In this document: positions 16,783-29,304 of the stretch, piece by piece
Numbering within the stretch: the first letter of the stretch is position 1
Layout: every line of letters begins with the position of its first letter
Source of the DNA: Planctomycetota bacterium
GTDB lineage: Bacteria > Planctomycetota > UBA8108 > UBA1146
DNA length: 64,000 bases
NCBI GenBank assembly: GCA_014240375.1
Contig: JAAZXB010000006.1
Coordinates: forward strand, 62,001-126,000
Direction of reading: 5' to 3'
Made by a program: the position numbers and the translations under genes
Notes under the pieces: generated by a model
Told to the model about the DNA's origin: nothing
The model's input: only the letters and a program-made list of their open reading frames with translations
Database searches by the model: none

Positions 16783-17793
16783 TTGACAGAAGGAGTTCGG
16801 TTGTCCGTCACCTTGAAATCACTGGCTGCGGTACCTACCTGGCTCACCTTGCAGGTGGTCACCATCTTCATCGGTTGGCTTCCGATTTCCCGTGCCAGGA
16901 GCCTGGGGCGATTCCTCGGGCGCTGCGGTTGGAGATGGCGGAGAGCGGAGCGTAGGCGCACCTGTGAACAGTTGCGACAACTGGATCCGGGGCTCGGTCA
17001 GAAAACACGTCAGCGCATCGGGAAACGTTGCTTCGAGCAGATGGGAGAGACGATCCTCGAACTGGTCTCGCTCGCCGGAAAGGAGCTGGATCAGCTCGGC
17101 AGTCCTCCTCGGCGCGGGGGGGTCGCCATCGAGGGGCTCGAAGAATTTCGCAGTAAGATTGCTGAACTGAGGTCCGATGGTAGGGGAGTGATTCTCATCT
17201 CAGGACACATCGGGAGCTGGGAACTCGCCGGTTCGATCGTCGGCAGGGAGTTCCCCAAAGACAGTTTGTTCCTGGCACGACGCTATCTGGATGCGGTCGA
17301 ACAGAACTGGGTCAATGGTCTCCGCTGTCGACTTGGCGATCGTCTGGTCTTCCAGGATGAGTCATTGTTACGATCGCTTCGATTGCTCCACGGAGGTGGA
17401 ATCCTCGCGATGCTGACCGACCTCGATATCAAGAGGATGGAGGGGATACACATCCCCTTTCTTGGCAAGGAAGCCCATACCACCACAGCTCCCGCACGAC
17501 TGGCTCTCAAATCAGCGGCGAGGTTGCTGCCCTTCTTCATCATCCGGGATCGCCACGGATATCACATCGAGGTGGATCGGCAGATCGATCCCTCTCTCCT
17601 GACAGGATCGGAGGAGCAGCAGATTCGAGAGGTCACCATCGAGATGAATGGGGCCATCGAGCGAGCGATCCGCCGTCATCCATCGCAATGGCCCTGGATG
17701 CACTCCCGCTGGCACTCGACCCCGGAGATCGTTGAACGACGAAAAAGAGCGCGTGCTCGCCCCTCGCTTGAGGGAGAGGCCGTTGAGGCATAA
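16783..17793 (+). CDS. LpxL/HtrB-like acyltransferase
   Basis: GVILISGHIGSWELAG, LFLARRYLDAVEQNWVN, GGGILAMLTDLDIKRMEGIHIPFLGKEAHTTTAPARLALKS, QWPWMHSRW. Confidence 0.88.
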   Translation: MTEGVRLSVTLKSLAAVPTWLTLQVVTIFIGWLPISRARSLGRFLGRCGWRWRRAERRRTCEQLRQLDPGLGQKTRQRIGKRCFEQMGETILELVSLAGKELDQLGSPPRRGGVAIEGLEEFRSKIAELRSDGRGVILISGHIGSWELAGSIVGREFPKDSLFLARRYLDAVEQNWVNGLRCRLGDRLVFQDESLLRSLRLLHGGGILAMLTDLDIKRMEGIHIPFLGKEAHTTTAPARLALKSAARLLPFFIIRDRHGYHIEVDRQIDPSLLTGSEEQQIREVTIEMNGAIERAIRRHPSQWPWMHSRWHSTPEIVERRKRARARPSLEGEAVEA

Positions 17794-17893: not shown

Positions 17894-18775
17894 ATGAAAA
17901 TTCTCTCGATCTTCTCGACTCTGACCTTGTCATTGTTGCTGGGGGCGATGCTGATCACCACTTCGTTTCTGTCGGGGCAAGATGCTCCCGAACTTTCGTG
18001 GAAGAAGGGCGATGGGGCAGAGGTTTTTCAGCAAGGAAAGACCGCCTACGCCGCGCAACAGTTCAAGGAGGCGTATGGTTTCTTCAAGGACGCACGCAAG
18101 CAGGCCAAGAATCGAGATACCCGCGCTCATGTCGAACTGTGGCTCGCCTCGACCGAAGGTGCCAACGAACTGACGGCTCTCAAGAAACAGGCCGCCGATG
18201 GAAAAGAGAACGCTGCCTATCGCTTGGCAGTGAAAAACTATTCAAAGTTTTCCAAGACGCTGGTTGGAGAGGAATACAAGAATTTCCTCACCGAACTGCA
18301 GAGAAAATTGTTTCACGTACTGGAAGATTTCGAGCGCGTCTCTCGTCGATACTCGGAAAAGTACGGCAAGAAATTTATCGACGAAGCCCAGTGGGTGCAG
18401 GAGGGCAAGCGAGCCTTGAAGTGGGATGTCGCATCGGGAAAGACCGAGTTGAAGATCAAGGGAGTCCCTGGTGGTCTGTCCGCCTACAAGTCGATCGCAT
18501 TCTATCTAGACATGCCCAGGGGAGGGTCACCCTACCAGCTGGTGTTCGTCGTCCCTGGGAAATCGGAGGCGGGGGTGAGCCAGGTGAAGGTGGTCAGCAA
18601 CGCCTACATCGCCCAGATGAAATCGCACAAGGGCCTCAAACGGATCGAAGTTCCGCTGCGGAATTTCAAGGGCCAGGGAGATGTGTCGTGGGATCGGGTC
18701 AAGGATTTCAGGATTCAGTTTCTCGGTGCAAAAAAGTTCACTGCCTATATCGACTTCATTGCGCTGCTAAAGTGA
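17894..18775 (+). CDS. Secreted conserved hypothetical; helical N-half, CIA30/CBM11-like beta C-half (tentative)
   Basis: Signal-like MKILSIFSTLTLSLLLGAMLITTSFLSGQ; C-terminal YKSIAFYLDMPRGGSPYQLVFVVPG...DFRIQFLGAKKFTAYIDFIAL. Confidence 0.6.
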   Translation: MKILSIFSTLTLSLLLGAMLITTSFLSGQDAPELSWKKGDGAEVFQQGKTAYAAQQFKEAYGFFKDARKQAKNRDTRAHVELWLASTEGANELTALKKQAADGKENAAYRLAVKNYSKFSKTLVGEEYKNFLTELQRKLFHVLEDFERVSRRYSEKYGKKFIDEAQWVQEGKRALKWDVASGKTELKIKGVPGGLSAYKSIAFYLDMPRGGSPYQLVFVVPGKSEAGVSQVKVVSNAYIAQMKSHKGLKRIEVPLRNFKGQGDVSWDRVKDFRIQFLGAKKFTAYIDFIALLK

Positions 18776-19508
18776 GCCCTGAAGTTCCCAGGGGTGAGGT
18801 TCCCGAGCCCTCGCGCCAGCAACGATCGAGGTCATCGGTGGCCTGATCGGTCGCCTCGTCGAGTGCACTCTGAAAACGCAAAGCCGCATCGCGGTCTCCA
18901 CTTCGCTCGGTAGCGGGATAGACCGGTGCTCCCACAACGATCACCGCTTTGCCCCAAGGTGCTGGTAGGATCATCCGATCCCAGGTGGATAAACGCATCG
19001 ATCGATCGACGGCGAATCCCAGCGGGATCATCGGGATCCCGGTTCTTCTCGCCAGTGCTGCGGCACCTTCTTTAGCCTCTTTTGGAGGGCCCTTCGGACC
19101 GTCGACAGCGAACACCGGGGAGTTCCCCTCGTGTACCAGCTTTTGCAGATCTTGAAAGCCACGCAGTCCTCCACGAGAACTGGACCCGAGGGCCAGAGCC
19201 ACATCGAGATAGTACAGAGCCGAGCCGAGTCGGGCACCATCGTGGTGCTGGCTGGTGATGGCGGCAAATCCATTGGAGCGCAGGGTGTAACTGAGGGGTA
19301 GAACCCACTCGTGCCAGAAACCGACCACCAGGTTGCCATGATTTCGCAGGGCGTCGATGGCGTGGTGACCTCCCGACCAGCGTAGATCGAGGGAGTCATA
19401 CAGCGCCGGTAGGAGCACCGAAAGTGCCCGGCCTGCGAGGGGATAGGGTGGCTCGGCGGAGGTGTCCTTCATGGCTTCAGGATGAGGGAGCAGGGGGGGG
19501 CTGGTCAA
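18756..19508 (-). CDS. DUF374 (lysophospholipid acyltransferase-like) protein
   Basis: VVGFWHEWVLPLSYTLRSNGFAAITSQHHDGARLG, FAVDGPKGPPKEAKEGAAALARRTGIPMIPLGFAV. Confidence 0.87.
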   Translation of the reverse strand: MTSPPLLPHPEAMKDTSAEPPYPLAGRALSVLLPALYDSLDLRWSGGHHAIDALRNHGNLVVGFWHEWVLPLSYTLRSNGFAAITSQHHDGARLGSALYYLDVALALGSSSRGGLRGFQDLQKLVHEGNSPVFAVDGPKGPPKEAKEGAAALARRTGIPMIPLGFAVDRSMRLSTWDRMILPAPWGKAVIVVGAPVYPATERSGDRDAALRFQSALDEATDQATDDLDRCWREGSGTSPLGTSGLTLAAQ

Positions 19509-20611
19509 TGAGACGCTACCTCCTCATCGCTGCGATTTAGCAGCTCCAGTAACGCCTGTTCGACCGCGGCCACCGGGATCGCTGACATGCAGAAGGAGTG
19601 ATCGCAATCGCGCAGGTTGCAAGGAGAGCAGGGGATGGCACTGCGCAGGACGCGAGTCCACGGCTGTCGTGGGGCGTAGATGCTGGGGTCCTTGGGACCG
19701 TACAGACCGATGGAAGGGATGCGGCGAATCGCCCCGAGGTGGAGGATTCCGGTGTCTGCTGCGACCACAGCTTGGCAGCGTCCGATCAATGCCGCCATCG
19801 CAGTCAGATCTCTGGTCTCGGGAGCGGCGTGCACGCGGGCTCCCGCTCCCGAGACGATGGCGTCTCTTGCTGTCCGATCTGCTTCGCCACCGGAGATCCA
19901 GATGCGGTGACCGCGGTGAGCCAGCGATCGCGCCAGTTCCATCCATCGCAGTGCTGGCCACTCCTTGAAACGGCCGAAGGCGCTGACGAAGGGATGCAGC
20001 AGGATCGGAGCCTCGCCATCTTTGAGTGTCTCGATGAGAGTCTCGTCGAGAGTCTCGTCGAGAGCATCGTCGACCTCACCGATCTGACCCGGCGGCGGCG
20101 CTCCATCCCAGCCGAGAGCCCTCACCACCGAGAGGGCCCGGTCGGTTCGATGGACTCGCCCGGCAACTTCGGGCGGGTGAAACCCTCGCCACCAGCGTGG
20201 CAATTCACCACCGTCCTGCGGATGAATTCCGATGATGCGATCGGCTCGAGCCAGCAAACGAATCAGCGCCGATCGAAAATTGGACTGCCAGTCGATCAGC
20301 AGGTCGTAGTGTTGCTCACGCAATTCCCGGGTGAATCGGGCGATCATCGGCCAGGCATGGACACGCTGATCGGGCTGCTTCCAGCTCCTTTTCAATTCGC
20401 TCCTGGGCAGGCTCAAGACCCTGTTCAGTGACGGATGGCCCAGTAACAGGCCGCTCGACAGGGACTCGGTCACGGCGTCGATCCGGGCTTCAGGAAATTG
20501 CTCAGAGAGTGCCTCCAGAGCGGGCAGAACCTGAATCAGATCACCGACGGCGGACAGCCGCACGATGAGGATCGAGCGCGGGAACAGGGGTTCGCTGGGC
20601 AGTGGTCTCAC
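19505..20611 (-). CDS. Glycosyltransferase family 9 (heptosyltransferase-like)
   Basis: ILIVRLSAVGDLIQVLPALEAL, HPFVSAFGRFKEWPALRW, VAADTGILHLGAIRRIPSIGLYGPKDP. Confidence 0.88.
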   Translation of the reverse strand: MRPLPSEPLFPRSILIVRLSAVGDLIQVLPALEALSEQFPEARIDAVTESLSSGLLLGHPSLNRVLSLPRSELKRSWKQPDQRVHAWPMIARFTRELREQHYDLLIDWQSNFRSALIRLLARADRIIGIHPQDGGELPRWWRGFHPPEVAGRVHRTDRALSVVRALGWDGAPPPGQIGEVDDALDETLDETLIETLKDGEAPILLHPFVSAFGRFKEWPALRWMELARSLAHRGHRIWISGGEADRTARDAIVSGAGARVHAAPETRDLTAMAALIGRCQAVVAADTGILHLGAIRRIPSIGLYGPKDPSIYAPRQPWTRVLRSAIPCSPCNLRDCDHSFCMSAIPVAAVEQALLELLNRSDEEVASH

Positions 20612-20683: not shown

Positions 20684-21808
20684 GTGAGCCCGATGAGCGT
20701 TCTTCTCGGAATTGAGTTACAGGGATCGACCGTCTCCTTGCTGGCGGTGGATCGCAAAGGCACTGTCCTGGCACAGGTACAAGAGCCGGTCAGTGTTCCT
20801 TTTCAGCAGTGGTGGGGAATTCATCCCGATGAGCGGGTGAGATCGGTCCGGGCGCTGCTGCAACACGCTTTGCAGGAGGGGCTGATCCGCCCTGCGGCGG
20901 TGGCGGCCATCGGCATCTCCTGTGAGTCTTCGCTGGTGCTGGTCGATGCAGAGATGGAGCCGATCCCGCCGCGCGCTCTCAACTGGCAAGAACTGGATCC
21001 GGTCGCAACGCTTCCTCGGCAGGTCCTCCGCTCGACCCTGGCCAGTTATCCGAGCATCTTACGCGGCCTCCATTGCGTCTTCGATCTGCAGGACTGGCTG
21101 CGCTACCGCTGGACCGGAGCAGTGGCCACCACCACCACCTTCGCCTGGAATATCGGACTGTCCAGTTCGCGTAGTCCAGGTCAGCGCTGGGATGCACAAG
21201 AACTCCAGCAACTGGGACTCGAGTCGGGACAGGTCCCTCCGCTGATGCCGGGACCCCATAAAATCGGAACCCTTGCCGAGGAGTTGGTGCGAGAGACGGG
21301 ATTGCCGAGAGGCACCTGGTTTTGTGGGGGTTCCACACCGCAAGCCGCACGGCTTTGGCTCGCTGCAGAACCTCGCCCGGGCCAGCGAATCGTTCTGCTC
21401 GAGCCCGATGGGGCGACCTTGTGGAGAGTCGGGGGAGAACCGAAGTCAGCGGACTCGATCGAAGATGTGATTCCGTCTCCCTACGGTGATCACTGGTATC
21501 ATCGAGAAGCGGTGGAGGTTGCGGATCCCCGTCGTGGGGACACCCCGATCGCCGATGTGGTGCATGACGCTACTGATATCGATTCCGAGCAGTCGTGGAG
21601 TGTGGATCGGCAATCGATGATGGTCTCCGCCGATTTTGGTGCCCCGTCGAGAGCCCCGGCACTGCTGGCAGGAGTCGGACTCGGCTGGTATCGCGACCTG
21701 AGGCCGCTATGGCGCAAGCGTTGTCGATGCGGATCTCTTCAGGAGTGGATCGATCAATCGATTCATGATGAGGGATCCCCGGATGTGGAGACGAGAGAGC
21801 AGACGTGA
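20684..21808 (+). CDS. FGGY carbohydrate kinase-like protein, apparently catalytically degenerate
   Basis: VLLGIELQGSTVSLLAVDRKG, FDLQDWLRYRWTGAVATTTTFAWNIGL, IGTLAEELVRETGLPRGTWFCGGSTPQAA; catalytic GG(G)D replaced by GGST. Confidence 0.7.
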   Translation: MSPMSVLLGIELQGSTVSLLAVDRKGTVLAQVQEPVSVPFQQWWGIHPDERVRSVRALLQHALQEGLIRPAAVAAIGISCESSLVLVDAEMEPIPPRALNWQELDPVATLPRQVLRSTLASYPSILRGLHCVFDLQDWLRYRWTGAVATTTTFAWNIGLSSSRSPGQRWDAQELQQLGLESGQVPPLMPGPHKIGTLAEELVRETGLPRGTWFCGGSTPQAARLWLAAEPRPGQRIVLLEPDGATLWRVGGEPKSADSIEDVIPSPYGDHWYHREAVEVADPRRGDTPIADVVHDATDIDSEQSWSVDRQSMMVSADFGAPSRAPALLAGVGLGWYRDLRPLWRKRCRCGSLQEWIDQSIHDEGSPDVETREQT

Positions 21809-22824
21809 AGAGCAGCACGACCCTCAAGGACCAGCTTCCAGCTCGCTTTCGCGGAACCATGCTCGGTGCCGCCATCGGCAGCGCCCTTGGCTTTCCCCAT
21901 TCTGGATCATCCCGAACCTTCATGAGGGCTCTGGGATCCGAAGTGATCGAGGGCTATGTCCGACATCGTAACGGCTACTTCCCGGTGGGGCAGCATGGTG
22001 CCGGCGTCCAGTTGATGACACTCGCTGCGGAAGCGATCGCCACTGTCGGTTCGGTGCAACCGCAGTCGATCGTCGATCACTGGATTCCGTTGTGGCGCGA
22101 AAATCGCATCATCGAGCGTCTCCCCGATGTCGATGTGGCGATGTCTCGCTGGCTGCGTCGCGGCCCGGATGCCCGGGGCTGTGCCTGCGGACCGGGCGAG
22201 GTGGGCAGTGGATCCCTGGTGTCTAGCGTACTGATCGGGCTGTGGGATCACGATGATCCCACTTCGCTGGTCGATGACTGCGAACGCTTGATCGGTGTGA
22301 CTCATGAGGACCCGGAGGTTCGAGCAGTCAGCTCGGCGCTGGCCAGTGTCATCAGTCATAATCTCACCCACAAGGATGTAGTGCTGGGAGACGTGATCGA
22401 TGGAGCCACTGCCGCTGCGGCTCGTATCGACATGGCAGTGGCGGAACGAATCCAGGAGATCCCGATGCTGCTCGCCTCCTCCGAACTGGTGGCCTTTGAT
22501 CAACTGGCCAGTTCTCCCGACGAGATTTCAAATGCCGATCACTCCGGAATCGAAAACCGAGCTCTACCGATCTTCCTCGTCGCTCTTCACAGCTGGTTGA
22601 GAAACCCAGCGGAACCGATGCTGGTGATCGGTTCCTGTCTCTCGTCAGGTGGAGCGGTGGAGATGACCGCAGCGGTGGGTGGGGCGCTGGCAGGCTCCTG
22701 TATCGGCGAGCATCGCTTTCCTGCAGTGCTGAAGGAGGGACTGCTGGAGGGGAAAGAGATCTCTGCTGCAGCCGACCTTCTCTACCAGAGCCAGGTCCAG
22801 GAACGCAGACGCAGGAAACTCTAG
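21805..22824 (+). CDS. DraG/ADP-ribosylglycohydrolase-like protein lacking canonical acidic metal-binding motifs
   Basis: FRGTMLGAAIGSALGFP, VGSGSLVSSVLIGL, AAVGGALAGSCIG; GTGA overlap with upstream gene. Confidence 0.65.
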   Translation: MKSSTTLKDQLPARFRGTMLGAAIGSALGFPHSGSSRTFMRALGSEVIEGYVRHRNGYFPVGQHGAGVQLMTLAAEAIATVGSVQPQSIVDHWIPLWRENRIIERLPDVDVAMSRWLRRGPDARGCACGPGEVGSGSLVSSVLIGLWDHDDPTSLVDDCERLIGVTHEDPEVRAVSSALASVISHNLTHKDVVLGDVIDGATAAAARIDMAVAERIQEIPMLLASSELVAFDQLASSPDEISNADHSGIENRALPIFLVALHSWLRNPAEPMLVIGSCLSSGGAVEMTAAVGGALAGSCIGEHRFPAVLKEGLLEGKEISAAADLLYQSQVQERRRRKL

Positions 22825-22915: not shown

Positions 22916-23146
22916 ATGTCTGGTGAGGTGAGGATGTTCGGCGAGATCGCCTTCGAGATGAGATGGATCTCCACAGCCCATCTATACGAAGCACTGGCGC
23001 TCCAGGCTCGGGATGAGGCGCGCGGCGAAAAGCATCGATTTCTCGGGCAGATTCTCATCGATCTGGGATATATGACAGACCAGCAGGTGCTCGAGGTCCT
23101 CACGGTCCTTCACGATCGCCCCCGCCATGGCCAGCGGGAGACCTGA
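22916..23146 (+). CDS. Small protein resembling a stand-alone MshEN/T2SSE-N-type domain
   Basis: MFGEIAFEMRWISTAHLYEALALQ...FLGQILIDLGYMTDQQVLEVL; compare MFGRIALKNQLVGEADLRRVMSSL in the 26844 ORF. Confidence 0.6.
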   Translation: MSGEVRMFGEIAFEMRWISTAHLYEALALQARDEARGEKHRFLGQILIDLGYMTDQQVLEVLTVLHDRPRHGQRET

Positions 23147-23193: not shown

Positions 23194-24156
23194 TTGCTGG
23201 AACGATGCTGGCGAGCCGGGGTGACTCTCGATCACTGGCGCCATCGCCGTCGTGAAACTGCAGGTGAGTGGCCCCTTCGACTTCCGGTTCCTGTCATCAG
23301 CATCGGCAACATCACCGTCGGAGGCACCGGCAAGACTCCTCTCACAGAAGCGTTGGCTCGAACCTGGTTGGATCGAGGTGGCCATCCGGGCATCGTCAGT
23401 CGTGGTTATCGTGGCGATGCCGATGGCAATGATGAACACCGGATGCTGCTACGAAGTTTGCCCGGGGTTCCCCATCAACAACATCGTTGTCGTCACACGG
23501 CAGGGCTCCAGTTGCTGGCAGCCCATCCCGAGGTGGATCTACTGCTGATCGATGATGGATTTCAACATCGACGCCTTCATCGAGATCTCGACCTGGTACT
23601 GCTCGATGGACGCAGTCCGCTGGCGGGAGGCTACTGCTTGCCGCGGGGGCGCTTGCGAGAGCCCTGGAGTCAGTTGGCACGCGCCGATCACCTGATCCTG
23701 ACTCGTGTCGAGCGTTGTCGTGATGGGGAACTGGCGAATACCATCGGGTTTTTACGCCAGTGGTTCCCATCGATACCTCGATCGTTGGCGACCACCGAGG
23801 TGGGAGAGGTGAGATCACTCGGCTCTGCGGAGATCCCCGCTGCCGGATCCAGGGTGTTTGGATTTTGTGGCATCGGAGACCCCGATTCCTTTCGACAGAC
23901 ACTCACCGCTCACGGCTGGAACCTGGTCGGGCTGGAGCCATTTCGAGATCACCACCGCTACCAGATGTCTGACTTTCGACGCATCTATCGGCAAGCCGGG
24001 GAACGGGGGGCCGCGGCCCTGGTCTGCACCGCCAAGGATGCAGTCAAGATCGAGCTCCTGCTCGCTGCTGGAATGAGTTCCCCATTGCCGATCCTGGTCC
24101 AGGAAGTGACCACCGCAGTCGATCTGGAGCCGATCCTCGCCCAAATTGGTGGGTGA
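23194..24156 (+). CDS. lpxK: Tetraacyldisaccharide 4'-kinase (N-terminus uncertain)
   Basis: VISIGNITVGGTGKTPLTEALA, VSRGYRGD, LLIDDGFQHRRLHRDLDLVLLDG, LPRGRLREPWSQLARAD. Confidence 0.92.
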   Translation: MLERCWRAGVTLDHWRHRRRETAGEWPLRLPVPVISIGNITVGGTGKTPLTEALARTWLDRGGHPGIVSRGYRGDADGNDEHRMLLRSLPGVPHQQHRCRHTAGLQLLAAHPEVDLLLIDDGFQHRRLHRDLDLVLLDGRSPLAGGYCLPRGRLREPWSQLARADHLILTRVERCRDGELANTIGFLRQWFPSIPRSLATTEVGEVRSLGSAEIPAAGSRVFGFCGIGDPDSFRQTLTAHGWNLVGLEPFRDHHRYQMSDFRRIYRQAGERGAAALVCTAKDAVKIELLLAAGMSSPLPILVQEVTTAVDLEPILAQIGG

Positions 24157-24232: not shown

Positions 24233-25204
24233 TTGGTACCGGACTCTCGTTGGCAACCGCTCGATCTTGGAGATGTGAAACCGATCCCCATCGGTCAGCG
24301 CAGGAATATTGTCCACAGAGATCAGTTTCGCGAACTGTGCGACCCGCAGGGAACCATCGAACAGTTGATCGATTCCTTGCCGGACATCCTGGCGGGTGGT
24401 GAACTGCGTGCTGCAGCGGCCGCGGTGGCCCGATCTGTTGCTGAAGGAGCTCCGGTGATCGCCGCCCTCGGTGGCCATGTGGTCAAGGTGGGAATGGGTC
24501 CACTGATCATCGATCTGATGGAGAAGGGTGTGATCTCGGCGATCGCGATGAACGGGGCGACCGCGATTCACGATCTGGAACTGGCTCTGATCGGCCAGAC
24601 ATCTGAAGATGTCGAGTCCAATGTTGCCGATGGTACATTCGGCATGGCGAGTGAAACTGCCGAAGCATTTCGACAGGCGAGCTTGGCTGGCTCCGATGAA
24701 GTGGGGCTGGGAGCGGCTCTGGGAGATTGGATCGAATCGCAGAGCGCTCCCCATGCCGAACTCTCGATGTTGCTCAGAGCTCGGCAATTGCGGATCCCGG
24801 CAACGGTTCATGTCGCCATCGGAACCGACATCGTGCACATGCATCCGGGTGTTGCGGGAGCAGATATGGGAGCGGCGACCGCTATCGATTTTCGGTTGCT
24901 CGCAGCGGTGGTCAGTGACCTCGAGAATGGTTGCTGGCTCAACATCGGCTCTGCGGTGGTGATGCCTGAGGTCTTTCTCAAGGTGGTCAACATCGCTCGT
25001 AACCTCGGGAAACCGCTGAATGGAGTGACCGCCATCAACTTTGACATGATCCCGCACTATCGCACCAGTCGAAATGTTTTGCAGCGTCCGGTGGAGAGAG
25101 GGATCTCATTGACCGGCCATCACGAGATCAACTTGCCGTTATTCCGAGTTGCTGTGCTGCAACGGATGTCAGCGGAAGATCGAGGAGCCAGTGATGATTC
25201 CTGA
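24233..25204 (+). CDS. Conserved protein resembling deoxyhypusine-synthase-fold proteins (tentative)
   Basis: AALGGHVVKVGMGPLIIDLMEKGVISAIAMNGATAIHDLELALIG, GTDIVHMHPGVAGADMGAATAIDFRLLAAVV, LNIGSAVVMPEVFLKVVNIARNLG. Confidence 0.6.
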   Translation: MVPDSRWQPLDLGDVKPIPIGQRRNIVHRDQFRELCDPQGTIEQLIDSLPDILAGGELRAAAAAVARSVAEGAPVIAALGGHVVKVGMGPLIIDLMEKGVISAIAMNGATAIHDLELALIGQTSEDVESNVADGTFGMASETAEAFRQASLAGSDEVGLGAALGDWIESQSAPHAELSMLLRARQLRIPATVHVAIGTDIVHMHPGVAGADMGAATAIDFRLLAAVVSDLENGCWLNIGSAVVMPEVFLKVVNIARNLGKPLNGVTAINFDMIPHYRTSRNVLQRPVERGISLTGHHEINLPLFRVAVLQRMSAEDRGASDDS

Positions 25205-26699
25205 ACTGAATACCCTGGAGGAGGCGCGCATCCTGGTGGTGGGTGACCTGATGCTCGACGAGTACTTCTACGGTGATATCGAGCGCATCTCGCCGGAGGC
25301 TCCGGTTCCGGTGGTACGAGGCCGTCACCATGAGATGCGAGTCGGAGGGGCTGGGAGCGTGGTGACCAATCTGGCCGCCCTCGGATTCGAGCCGATCGTC
25401 GTGGGGCTGGTCGGAGATGACGATGGCGGGCGGTTCATCCGCGAGGCACTCGAGGAGACCGGAGCCCGCACCGAGGGAGTGGTCGTCTGCAAGAGCCGAC
25501 CGACGATTCGCAAGACTCGGATCCTGGCCGGAGTCCAGCACGCTGGCAGAGCCCAGCAGCAGGTACTGCGCCTCGACCAGGAGGAGAAGAGTCCGATCGA
25601 CATTGGCGAGCAGACGCTCTTGATCGAGGCCGTCAATAACGCTCTTGAGCAAGATCCTGCAGCGGTGCTGATCTCTGATTACGAGAAGGGACTGCTCGAG
25701 AAATCACTCCTCGAGTCGCTGGTCGCAGGGGCTCAGCGACGATCAATTCCGGTGCTGGTCGACCCCGGCCGATCGGGACGCTGGAGTGGTTATCGTGGGG
25801 CGACGCTGATCTGTCCCAATCGATACGAGGCCAGTAGCGCGACCGGAATCGATCTCGACGCTGAAGTAAAGGAGCAATTGAAGGCGGGACAGGCGCTGGT
25901 CGAGGATCTCGAACTGGAGCACTGCATCCTGACCCTCGATCGAGACGGAATCACCCGAGTCTCCGCCAGTGGAGACTCTCGGCGCCATCCGACCCGGGTT
26001 CAGGCGGTCACCGATGTGGCGGGTGCCGGAGACATGGTCCTGAGTCTGCTGGGAGCGGCACTGGGCTCCGGCTGGAACATCGATGATGCCTGTCAACTGG
26101 CCAATCTCGGGGCCGGGATCGAGGTCCAGAAGGTCGGGGTGCAGCCGGTTGAACGGTGGGAACTGGAGGCAGCCAGGAGTGCCTGGATGGGGATCGTCCC
26201 CATCGCACTGCGCTCGTCGAAACAGATGCAGGAACTGGTCCAGCAGGCGAAGGCCACCGGCCAGACGGTGGTCTTCACCAATGGCTGCTTCGATCTACTC
26301 CATGCCGGTCATCTCCAGCTGCTCGAAGCGGCCCGGGCCTTTGGCGATCTGCTGGTGGTTGGAATCAATTCAGATGCGTCGGTGGCTCGCCTCAAGGGCC
26401 CCGATCGACCGATTCTGCCCGCCACCGAGCGCGCTCGATTGCTCGGGGCACTCTCCTGTGTCGATCATGTGGTGGTGTTTGATGAGGACACCCCGAAAGC
26501 ACTGATCGGTGCTCTGATCCCCGATGTGCTGGTCAAGGGTGCCGATTACAGCGTCGAGGAGGTGGTCGGTAAGGACGAGGTGGAGGCGGCGGGAGGCCGG
26601 GTCGAGCGAATCACCTTGGTCCAGGGGGCTTCGACCACCGGGCTCATCGAACGAATTCGAAGTGGTACTCGAACTTGCCCCCCGACGCCGGAAGGCTAG
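25194..26699 (+). CDS. hldE: Bifunctional heptose-7-phosphate kinase / heptose-1-phosphate adenylyltransferase
   Basis: ILVVGDLMLDEYFYGDIERISPEAPVPVV, ADVAGAGDMVLSLL-type PfkB motif; C-terminal VVFTNGCFDLLHAGHLQLLEAARAFGDLLVVGINSDASVARLKGPDRPI. Confidence 0.95.
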   Translation: MIPELNTLEEARILVVGDLMLDEYFYGDIERISPEAPVPVVRGRHHEMRVGGAGSVVTNLAALGFEPIVVGLVGDDDGGRFIREALEETGARTEGVVVCKSRPTIRKTRILAGVQHAGRAQQQVLRLDQEEKSPIDIGEQTLLIEAVNNALEQDPAAVLISDYEKGLLEKSLLESLVAGAQRRSIPVLVDPGRSGRWSGYRGATLICPNRYEASSATGIDLDAEVKEQLKAGQALVEDLELEHCILTLDRDGITRVSASGDSRRHPTRVQAVTDVAGAGDMVLSLLGAALGSGWNIDDACQLANLGAGIEVQKVGVQPVERWELEAARSAWMGIVPIALRSSKQMQELVQQAKATGQTVVFTNGCFDLLHAGHLQLLEAARAFGDLLVVGINSDASVARLKGPDRPILPATERARLLGALSCVDHVVVFDEDTPKALIGALIPDVLVKGADYSVEEVVGKDEVEAAGGRVERITLVQGASTTGLIERIRSGTRTCPPTPEG

Positions 26700-26843: not shown

Positions 26844-28229
26844 ATGACCGATGATACGAAGGAGGGCACCGCCGACAGGCCCTCCAGCGAAGCAGCCATG
26901 TTTGGCCGCATCGCTCTCAAGAATCAACTGGTGGGGGAAGCCGATCTGCGACGGGTGATGTCGAGCCTCACCGGGGGATCGGATCTGGGAAAGGCACTGG
27001 TGGCAGAGGGTTTGATCTCTGCCAAGCATGCCGAGGCGATCTCACAAAAAGTTTCTCAGCGACTCGAGGGCCAGTCGACAGCGGCTAGCGCGGGTGACGC
27101 CGGGAGTCCGGCGCAGGCCACTGCTCGAGGCGGAGTGGTCTCGATCGACGATGTGAAGCGGATGGACTTCACCTCGATGGTCGGCAAGCCGTTGATTGAA
27201 TATCTGCGCAAGGCGCGAGAGTTGGGTTGTTCCGACTTTCACTTCCAGGTCGATTCGGCACCTCTGGTTCGTCTCCACGGACATCTCATCCGCTGGAAGC
27301 ATCCAGTACTGACCGTCAAGGACACTGCCAGGACCATCGAGGAATTGCTCGATGAGAAGCAGTGGAAAGATCTGCAACAAGAACAGGATCTGGACTACTG
27401 CCTCGACGATGGGGACAGGGGTCGCTACCGCACCAACTGCTTCAAGCAGCGCAAGGGTTTCGAGGCGGTGTTTCGGATCATCCCGACCAAGGTGCCCTCT
27501 TTTGAGGATCTACACCTGCCGGAGGTGCTTTCCCAGTTCACCCAGTACAACCAGGGCATCGTTCTGGTCACGGGGCCAGCCGGTTGCGGGAAGTCTGCAA
27601 CACTGGCGGCGATCGTCGAGCGAATCAACCAGCAGCGCCATGACCACATCGTGACGGTTGAGGATCCCATCGAATACATCTTCACCCCCGCAGGATGCAA
27701 CATCAATCAGCGTCATGTGCACCATCACACGGAGACCAACTACAGCGCCTTGCGATCGGCGATGAGGGCCGATCCGGATGTCATCATGGTGGGCGAGATG
27801 CGTGACGTGGAGACGATCTCGATGGCCATCACCGCCGCAGAAACGGGGCACCTGGTTCTGGCGACGCTTCATACGACCAATGCCATCCGCTCGATCGATC
27901 GCCTGATCGATGTGTTTCCTCCTCGAGAGCAGGAGCAGGTCCGAGCGATGGTTTCCGAGTCGATGCGAGGGGTCATCTCACAGCAGTTGTTGCCGCGAAA
28001 GGATGGTACCGGCGTTGAGCCGGCACTCGAGATCATGTTCACCACTCCGGCGGTAGGAAATCTGATTCGGGAGGGCAAGACATACCAGCTGGCGTCGGTG
28101 CTCCAGACCGGTCGTAAGCAGGGAATGATCACCATGGATGACTCGATTCGAATCTTGCTCCGTAAGGGAATAGTGACCCCGGAGACTGCTCGATTCCACG
28201 CGGAGGACCCCTCCGCCATGCAGGGTTAG
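26844..28229 (+). CDS. PilT/PilB-like retraction ATPase with N-terminal MshEN-like domain
   Basis: SDFHFQVDSAPLVRLHG, VTGPAGCGKSATLAAIV, TVEDPIEYIF, GEMRDVETISMAITAAETGHLVLATLHTTNA. Confidence 0.92.
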   Translation: MTDDTKEGTADRPSSEAAMFGRIALKNQLVGEADLRRVMSSLTGGSDLGKALVAEGLISAKHAEAISQKVSQRLEGQSTAASAGDAGSPAQATARGGVVSIDDVKRMDFTSMVGKPLIEYLRKARELGCSDFHFQVDSAPLVRLHGHLIRWKHPVLTVKDTARTIEELLDEKQWKDLQQEQDLDYCLDDGDRGRYRTNCFKQRKGFEAVFRIIPTKVPSFEDLHLPEVLSQFTQYNQGIVLVTGPAGCGKSATLAAIVERINQQRHDHIVTVEDPIEYIFTPAGCNINQRHVHHHTETNYSALRSAMRADPDVIMVGEMRDVETISMAITAAETGHLVLATLHTTNAIRSIDRLIDVFPPREQEQVRAMVSESMRGVISQQLLPRKDGTGVEPALEIMFTTPAVGNLIREGKTYQLASVLQTGRKQGMITMDDSIRILLRKGIVTPETARFHAEDPSAMQG

Positions 28230-28239
28230 GAAAATATCG

Positions 28240-29304
28240 ATGTCCGTTAAAGCACTCGAAAAACTACTCTGCAAGATTCGTGAAGTCGAGGGGTCTGACC
28301 TTCATATCAGTGCAGGAATGCCTCCCAAGATCCGCATTCACGGACACCTGAGGCCCATCAACAAGGAACCTCTCACCAATCAACAGGTCGAGGAGCTGCT
28401 GCTCCCCTCCCTCGATGAGAAGCGCAGCGCGATCTTCGCCGAGAAGAATGATCTCGATTGGGCCTACGCCATTCCTGGAGTGGCACGCTTCCGTTGTAGC
28501 TTCTTCAGGCAGCAACACGGGATGTCCGGGGTATTCCGGATCATTCCCGAGGAGATCAAGACGGTGCAGGAACTGGGAGTGCCCTCTCACATCGAAGATT
28601 TCTGTAAACTTCGTAATGGTTTGATCCTCTGCACGGGTCCGACAGGAAGTGGAAAATCGACGACCCTTGCGGCGTTGATCGACTTCATCAACAGGAATCA
28701 GTCGAGGCACATCGTGACCATCGAGGAACCGATCGAGTTCGTGCATCAGAACAAGAACAGTCAGATCACCCAGCGCGAGGTGGGAATCGATACGGATTCC
28801 TTCGCCCGGGCGTTGCGGTCGGTCAGCCGCCAGGATCCGGACGTGATACTGGTGGGTGAACTTCGAGATCTGGAGACGATCAGTCTTGCCATCACCGCCG
28901 CAGAGATGGGGTACCTGGTATTTGCTACCCTCCATACCAATAGTGCGGCCAAGACTGTCGACCGGATCATCGATGTGTTTCCTGAAGATCAGCAAAACCA
29001 GGTGCGCACGATGCTCTCTTCATCGCTCAAGGGAATCATCGCCCAGCTACTGATCCCGAGGCAGGATGGCAAGGGTCGTGTGGCGGTCAATGAGTTGCTC
29101 TTCCATGATGGATCCTTGCCCAACATCATCCGTGAGGGTGCGGTGCACAAGATCGTCTCGCTCATCGAGGGTGGACGAGGTAAGGGGATGCAATTGATGG
29201 ATGATTCCATCATGGTCGCATTGAAGAAGGGTGATATCAGTGCTGAACATGCGCACCGGTGGGCCAGCGAGAAGAAGAAATTTCAGCACTTCCTGAAGGG
29301 TTGA
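28240..29304 (+). CDS. pilT: Type IV pilus twitching motility ATPase PilT
   Basis: SDLHISAGMPPKIRIHGHLRP, CTGPTGSGKSTTLAALIDFIN, TIEEPIEFVHQNKNSQITQREVG, GELRDLETISLAITAAEMGYLVFATLHTNSA. Confidence 0.95.
   Translation: MSVKALEKLLCKIREVEGSDLHISAGMPPKIRIHGHLRPINKEPLTNQQVEELLLPSLDEKRSAIFAEKNDLDWAYAIPGVARFRCSFFRQQHGMSGVFRIIPEEIKTVQELGVPSHIEDFCKLRNGLILCTGPTGSGKSTTLAALIDFINRNQSRHIVTIEEPIEFVHQNKNSQITQREVGIDTDSFARALRSVSRQDPDVILVGELRDLETISLAITAAEMGYLVFATLHTNSAAKTVDRIIDVFPEDQQNQVRTMLSSSLKGIIAQLLIPRQDGKGRVAVNELLFHDGSLPNIIREGAVHKIVSLIEGGRGKGMQLMDDSIMVALKKGDISAEHAHRWASEKKKFQHFLKG

Follow-up and report, generated by a model that had tools for sequence, protein, structure and literature searches.

The window, a 64,000-nucleotide stretch of the genome of a marine member of the Planctomycetota, carries two genes, here called A and B, that retain the folds of known enzymes and have lost their catalytic residues (Table 1). 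The genome assembly amounts to 3.39 Mb; the named genomes closest to it are Planctomycetota MAGs, including UBA1146, TMED53 and MCMED-G47. An earlier, sequence-only reading had described both open reading frames (374 and 339 amino acids), their GTGA overlap and a number of peptides, all of which are present in the sequence, and had regarded the two products as degenerate enzyme scaffolds encoded among lipopolysaccharide (LPS) genes. Alignment confirmed the residue losses, AlphaFold and Foldseek confirmed the folds, and the LPS setting was borne out by Pfam matches of the neighbouring genes and by a gene-neighbourhood comparison across the class. The 374-amino-acid frame of gene A runs from GTG 20684 to a stop at 21806–21808, but ATG 20693, where its homologues begin, is the more likely start and would give a product of 371 amino acids.

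Table 1. Genes and features around the A–B pair (positions within the window)
Feature	Position	Strand	Evidence or remark
LpxL-type lipid A acyltransferase	16783..17793	+	Lip_A_acyltrans 1.4e-35
DUF374 protein, acyltransferase-like, LPS-associated	18756..19508	-	PF04028 4.2e-14
GT9 heptosyltransferase, divergent from A	19505..20611	-	Glyco_transf_9 3.3e-30
Gene A, FGGY-fold pseudokinase without ATP lobe	20684..21808	+	Pfam, AF2, Foldseek, class alignment
GTGA four-nucleotide stop/start overlap of A and B	21805..21808	+	sequence
Gene B, ARH/DraG-fold pseudoenzyme, 339 aa	21805..22824	+	Pfam, AF2, Foldseek, residue alignment
Conserved small neighbour gene, 76 aa, start codon ATG 22916	22916..23146	+	alignment; no Pfam family above cut-off
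LpxK, lipid A 4'-kinase	23194..24156	+	Pfam LpxK 1.5e-68
HldE/RfaE, makes ADP-heptose	25149..26699	+	PfkB and cytidylyltransferase domains in orthologue
PilT-like ATPase 1	26844..28229	+	T2SSE 1.2e-44; second copy follows at about 28255–29298

Gene A matches the Pfam family FGGY_N at 51.1 bits (cut-off 28.8), with the best stretch at residues 121–218, while a Pfam profile search did not find FGGY_C (PF02782), the ATP lobe, at E ≤ 1. Against the xylulokinase model TIGR01312 it scores 45.4 bits, the equivalog cut-off being 380.25. An AlphaFold (AF2) model built with the class alignment as input has a pLDDT of 90.2, and Foldseek matched it in the PDB to xylulose and glycerol kinases, most of the alignments containing large gaps. 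With the FGGY kinases (xylulokinase XylB, glycerol kinase) gene A shares the N-lobe fold and the landmarks LRYRWTG and TGLPRGTW; unlike them, it lacks the DxGT phosphate loop, the sugar motif, the catalytic Asp and the FGGY_C/ATP lobe. The position of the DxGT loop is occupied by IELQGST and the catalytic Asp column by P219, and the sugar motif, QQHG in the XylB of the same genome, aligns with SCES; very little of the ATP lobe is left when A is aligned with that XylB. None of the four elements (DxGT, sugar motif, catalytic Asp and C-lobe) occurs in any member of A in the class alignment, and GGGD[NQ] or DxGT, looked for elsewhere in the A sequences, was not found class-wide. The XylB-like kinase itself is intact (DVGTQ, GGGDN) and separately encoded (L090:4082–5491), so gene A is not the sole FGGY protein of this genome.

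Gene B matches the Pfam family ADP_ribosyl_GH (PF03747) over the full profile at 90.1 bits (cut-off 26.2), and its AF2 model, again built from the class alignment, has a pLDDT of 90.9. Foldseek matched this model in the PDB to MJ1187, ARH3 and DraG (1t5j, TM 0.81/0.91, E 1e-12). These three ADP-ribosylglycohydrolase (ARH) family proteins share the all-helical fold with gene B over its full length; unlike them, gene B retains neither the catalytic flap Glu nor any of the metal ligands. In the N-terminal part of the site, alignment shows D26 changed to S, the flap Glu to S33 (an assignment taken from the B-family multiple alignment), T65 to G, D66 to A and D67 to G, so that residues 65–67 read GAG where [ST]DD is usual; in the C-terminal part, D284 is changed to A, D286 to E and T287 to M, and AVEM at 284–287 stands in for D-x-D-T. 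With every aligned metal or catalytic residue replaced, the dinuclear metal site is gone from gene B. It is established that ARH enzymes require these residues (PMC7050489, PMC8319183). The sequence-only reading had allowed for a catalytic Asp or metal ligands lying elsewhere in the two proteins; alignment revealed none, and no alternative [ST]DD or DxDT motif aligning with the ARH site was found in gene B. Erosion extends to the phosphate-binding GNG loop, which across most lineages of the B-family alignment has become GAS/GAA, SCG, EAA, SSD or AEP, and some B lineages retain a TH-x-D element and a GxG loop.

Precedents for an ARH fold that serves without catalysis come, by analogy, from eukaryotes and organelles. 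ADPRHL1/ARH2, a vertebrate heart pseudoenzyme, is described as having the ARH fold without the residues that catalysis needs, as in gene B, and is essential for heart development (PMC7390403, PMC10601310); it differs from gene B in being eukaryotic and outside any gene cluster, and the likeness is drawn at the level of the family. The ARH fold also occurs as a subunit of large assemblies, in mt-SAF23 (6sga) and in the ARHL protein of the Orf2971/Ycf2-FtsHi motor complex (8xks, 8xqw). Both matched gene B by profile, and ARHL also by fold; unlike gene B they belong to organellar machines, and they are likened to it by fold and not by the state of the active site. Literature searches for a bacterial ARH pseudoenzyme or an FGGY pseudokinase returned nothing relevant.

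Both genes are kept throughout the class. Among 29 class genomes from six families (f1–f6), several of them incomplete or fragmented, A was found in 28 and B in 27; these counts include one genome (G024) whose only A signal comes from longer FGGY frames that match weakly, and whose B is broken up at contig ends into three short pieces. Where completeness is at least 90%, A and B are each present in 16 of 16 genomes. Across 294 genomes of the phylum the short form of A is restricted to the class, the A search elsewhere scoring only full-length FGGY proteins at no more than 114 bits, and B-like proteins outside the class also score lower (at most 266 bits). Values of dN/dS lie between 0.06 and 0.18 for A and between 0.03 and 0.13 for B. 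Both genes are under purifying selection, which excludes neutral decay.

The catalytic site of B was lost unevenly. Of the B copies checked within the class, only those of G009 (L046) and G016 (L047) have a complete ARH site and, judging from their sequences, may be active. Outside the class, 11 of 12 examined relatives keep the ARH motifs, two of the 11 without a clear flap Glu; the exception, G120, is divergent. Class members retain different pieces of the site, G021 for instance SDD and both G019 and G026 the flap Glu; D26 is changed only in three f1 genera (g1, g3 and g5). As different members lost different pieces, erosion was piecemeal and parallel. In the B gene tree the copies of G016 and G007/G009 branch at the base of the class, and most of the dead copies group together. 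A single loss in their common ancestor was considered and rejected, since the grouped dead copies keep different parts of the site. The f1 copies of B as one clade are only marginally rejected (p-AU 0.049); in the A gene tree, f1 and f2 split from the rest with full support. The intact copies of G009 and G016, already situated in the LPS locus, form a natural active/inactive comparison pair with the dead ones.

The sequence-only reading had proposed a conserved, translationally coupled pair. Class-wide retention and purifying selection of both genes uphold its conservation, but the coupling is confined to 13 genomes and adjacency to two families. The four-nucleotide overlap is present in 13 of 13 genomes of genera g1, g3 and g5, and the remaining adjacent cases have spacings of +7 (G007), −8 (G009) and +12 (G016) nucleotides. 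Every genome of f1 and f2, together one order, that contains the two genes has them side by side, 16 in number; in the other four families (f3–f6) A and B occupy separate loci. In genus g9 (f5) the partners are swapped, A overlapping mdh (malate dehydrogenase) by four nucleotides and B overlapping kdsA. Restricted adjacency and partner swapping argue against an obligate A–B complex, which we no longer favour; a complex in f1 may have arisen secondarily.

B is constantly linked to genes of lipid A, Kdo and heptose synthesis. Of the 26 class genomes with LpxK, 25 have B and lpxK on one contig and no more than 1.4 kb apart; in the remaining one (G011) both genes sit at contig ends. HldE follows LpxK in five families and is absent from the f3 locus, the order of the PilT-like ATPase pair is conserved in all six, KdsA flanks the other side of the locus in f3–f6, and GT9 is also part of it. 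Six loci of B relatives outside the class, each covering 11–12 kb, contained none of the genes just named. The linkage of A is less constant: it lies by DUF374, GT9 or LpxL in five of six families (GT9 in f1, f2 and f3; DUF374 in f1, f3 and f5; an LpxL gene directly downstream in G018 of f4), and its neighbours in f4–f6 are mainly mdh/queA, the immediate one being mdh. As evidence for what A and B do, this neighbourhood is guilt by association.

Several other genes of the locus are of interest in their own right. The small product of 22916–23146, found beside B or LpxK in f1, f2, f5 and one f6 genome, consists of a tandem pair of LG..L...G.....L..AL..Q-like repeats and in this resembles the MshEN-like N-terminal module of type II secretion ATPases; it could be a c-di-GMP-binding module near LPS genes. 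The class-wide succession of hldE and two PilT-like ATPases (26844–29298) is an unusually constant pairing of LPS and pilus-retraction-type genes. Between lpxK and hldE in f1, the frame at 24233–25204 gives weak, sub-cut-off matches to deoxyhypusine synthase/ArgZ-like proteins. Beside lpxK in f4–f6 lies a conserved unannotated protein lacking a Pfam match (L079:3111–3701, L078:4487–5125, L072:9026–9703); the L079 version resembles a lipoprotein and has a Cys close to its N-terminus, and the protein is a possible candidate for an LPS-assembly lipoprotein.

One genome, G005, a 2.2-Mb assembly of the same family that is 82% complete, is alone in the class in lacking both A and B. LpxK, HldE, LpxB and the Kdo transferase were not found in it either, and LpxC is retained. 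The counterparts of the missing genes sit on three different contigs in G000, the genome of the window, so incompleteness alone explains G005 poorly. Its A, B, lpxK and hldE could nevertheless have been lost in one physical event, given their arrangement in f1, and G005 possibly represents a loss of lipid A in a single genome.

Taken together, the catalytic residues have been lost and the folds retained in both proteins across the class, and B is constantly tied to lpxK together with hldE, the PilT-like genes and/or kdsA. We put at about even the chance that A and B are ancient, class-restricted pseudoenzymes with a non-catalytic role in the envelope, for which the likeliest form would be a scaffold or regulator of lipid A–Kdo–heptose assembly. 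Their orthology and function are assigned here from sequence, predicted structure and gene context.

The strongest competing explanation, unlikely but deserving of weight, is that A and B act outside LPS synthesis, for example in protein quality control or as another kind of scaffold, and that their linkage is inherited synteny. Gene order may persist without functional linkage, and the neighbours of A vary by family between mdh/queA and LPS genes. That same reshuffling, over the same distances, indicates however that synteny is not generally frozen; moreover, B and kdsA are translationally coupled in f5, and G005 is without A, B and the lipid A pathway together.

Distinctly less probable is a metabolite sensor, in which B would bind an ADP-sugar such as the ADP-heptose made by HldE, A would bind a sugar or sugar phosphate, and occupancy would tune LPS synthesis. 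The ARH fold binds ADP-ribose, HldE stands next to the B locus in five of the six families, and the TH-x-D element and GxG loop persist in some lineages; these points favour such a role, which the sequence-only reading had offered alongside a scaffold. It is weakened by the replacement of the GNG loop in most lineages, on account of which ADP-heptose sensing no longer serves as our leading idea, by the dependence of ARH3 activity on neighbouring adenosine contacts (PMC8319183), and by the lack of a sugar motif in A.

Fainter still is the prospect of cryptic catalysis, with new residues replacing the old site and A and B being active enzymes of a new type. Strong purifying selection would suit this idea, and USP53 and USP54, annotated as pseudoenzymes, are reported to be capable of activity (PMC12037411); but B retains none of the two-metal ligands, the residues in their place differ from lineage to lineage, and A is without its whole ATP lobe. 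Decaying pseudogenes, for which the lost catalytic motifs might speak, can be dismissed as next to impossible, since almost every class genome has open frames, dN/dS lies at 0.03–0.18, and the check for decay came out against it.

A non-catalytic role in LPS assembly could most economically have been reached in a few steps. B would have entered the LPS locus at a time when its ARH site was complete, as the intact orthologues of G009 and G016 in that locus suggest; selection would then have come to act on its binding role, with piecemeal erosion of the metal site following in separate lineages. A may represent an FGGY N-lobe that has been preserved without the ATP lobe and serves as a binding module. 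A rearrangement in one order presumably brought A and B together as a single operon; the two genes became translationally coupled in three genera, and such an arrangement would help to equalise their dosage or let the products assemble during translation. Tentatively, and with less than even confidence, we propose that in a class of Planctomycetota an ARH hydrolase and a truncated sugar kinase have become non-catalytic factors dedicated to assembling or gating lipid A–Kdo–heptose synthesis, the hydrolase site having been lost repeatedly in parallel and the binding retained.

Lipid A synthesis is textbook biochemistry in Proteobacteria; to our knowledge, few of its accessory factors have been identified in Planctomycetota. 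A would be annotated in databases as a sugar kinase and B as an ADP-ribosylglycohydrolase, and probably they are neither. If A and B are indeed LPS factors, they would provide a clean natural case of repeated enzyme-site loss under a constant gene context, in which the intact B orthologues (G009, G016) and the dead ones allow direct comparison.
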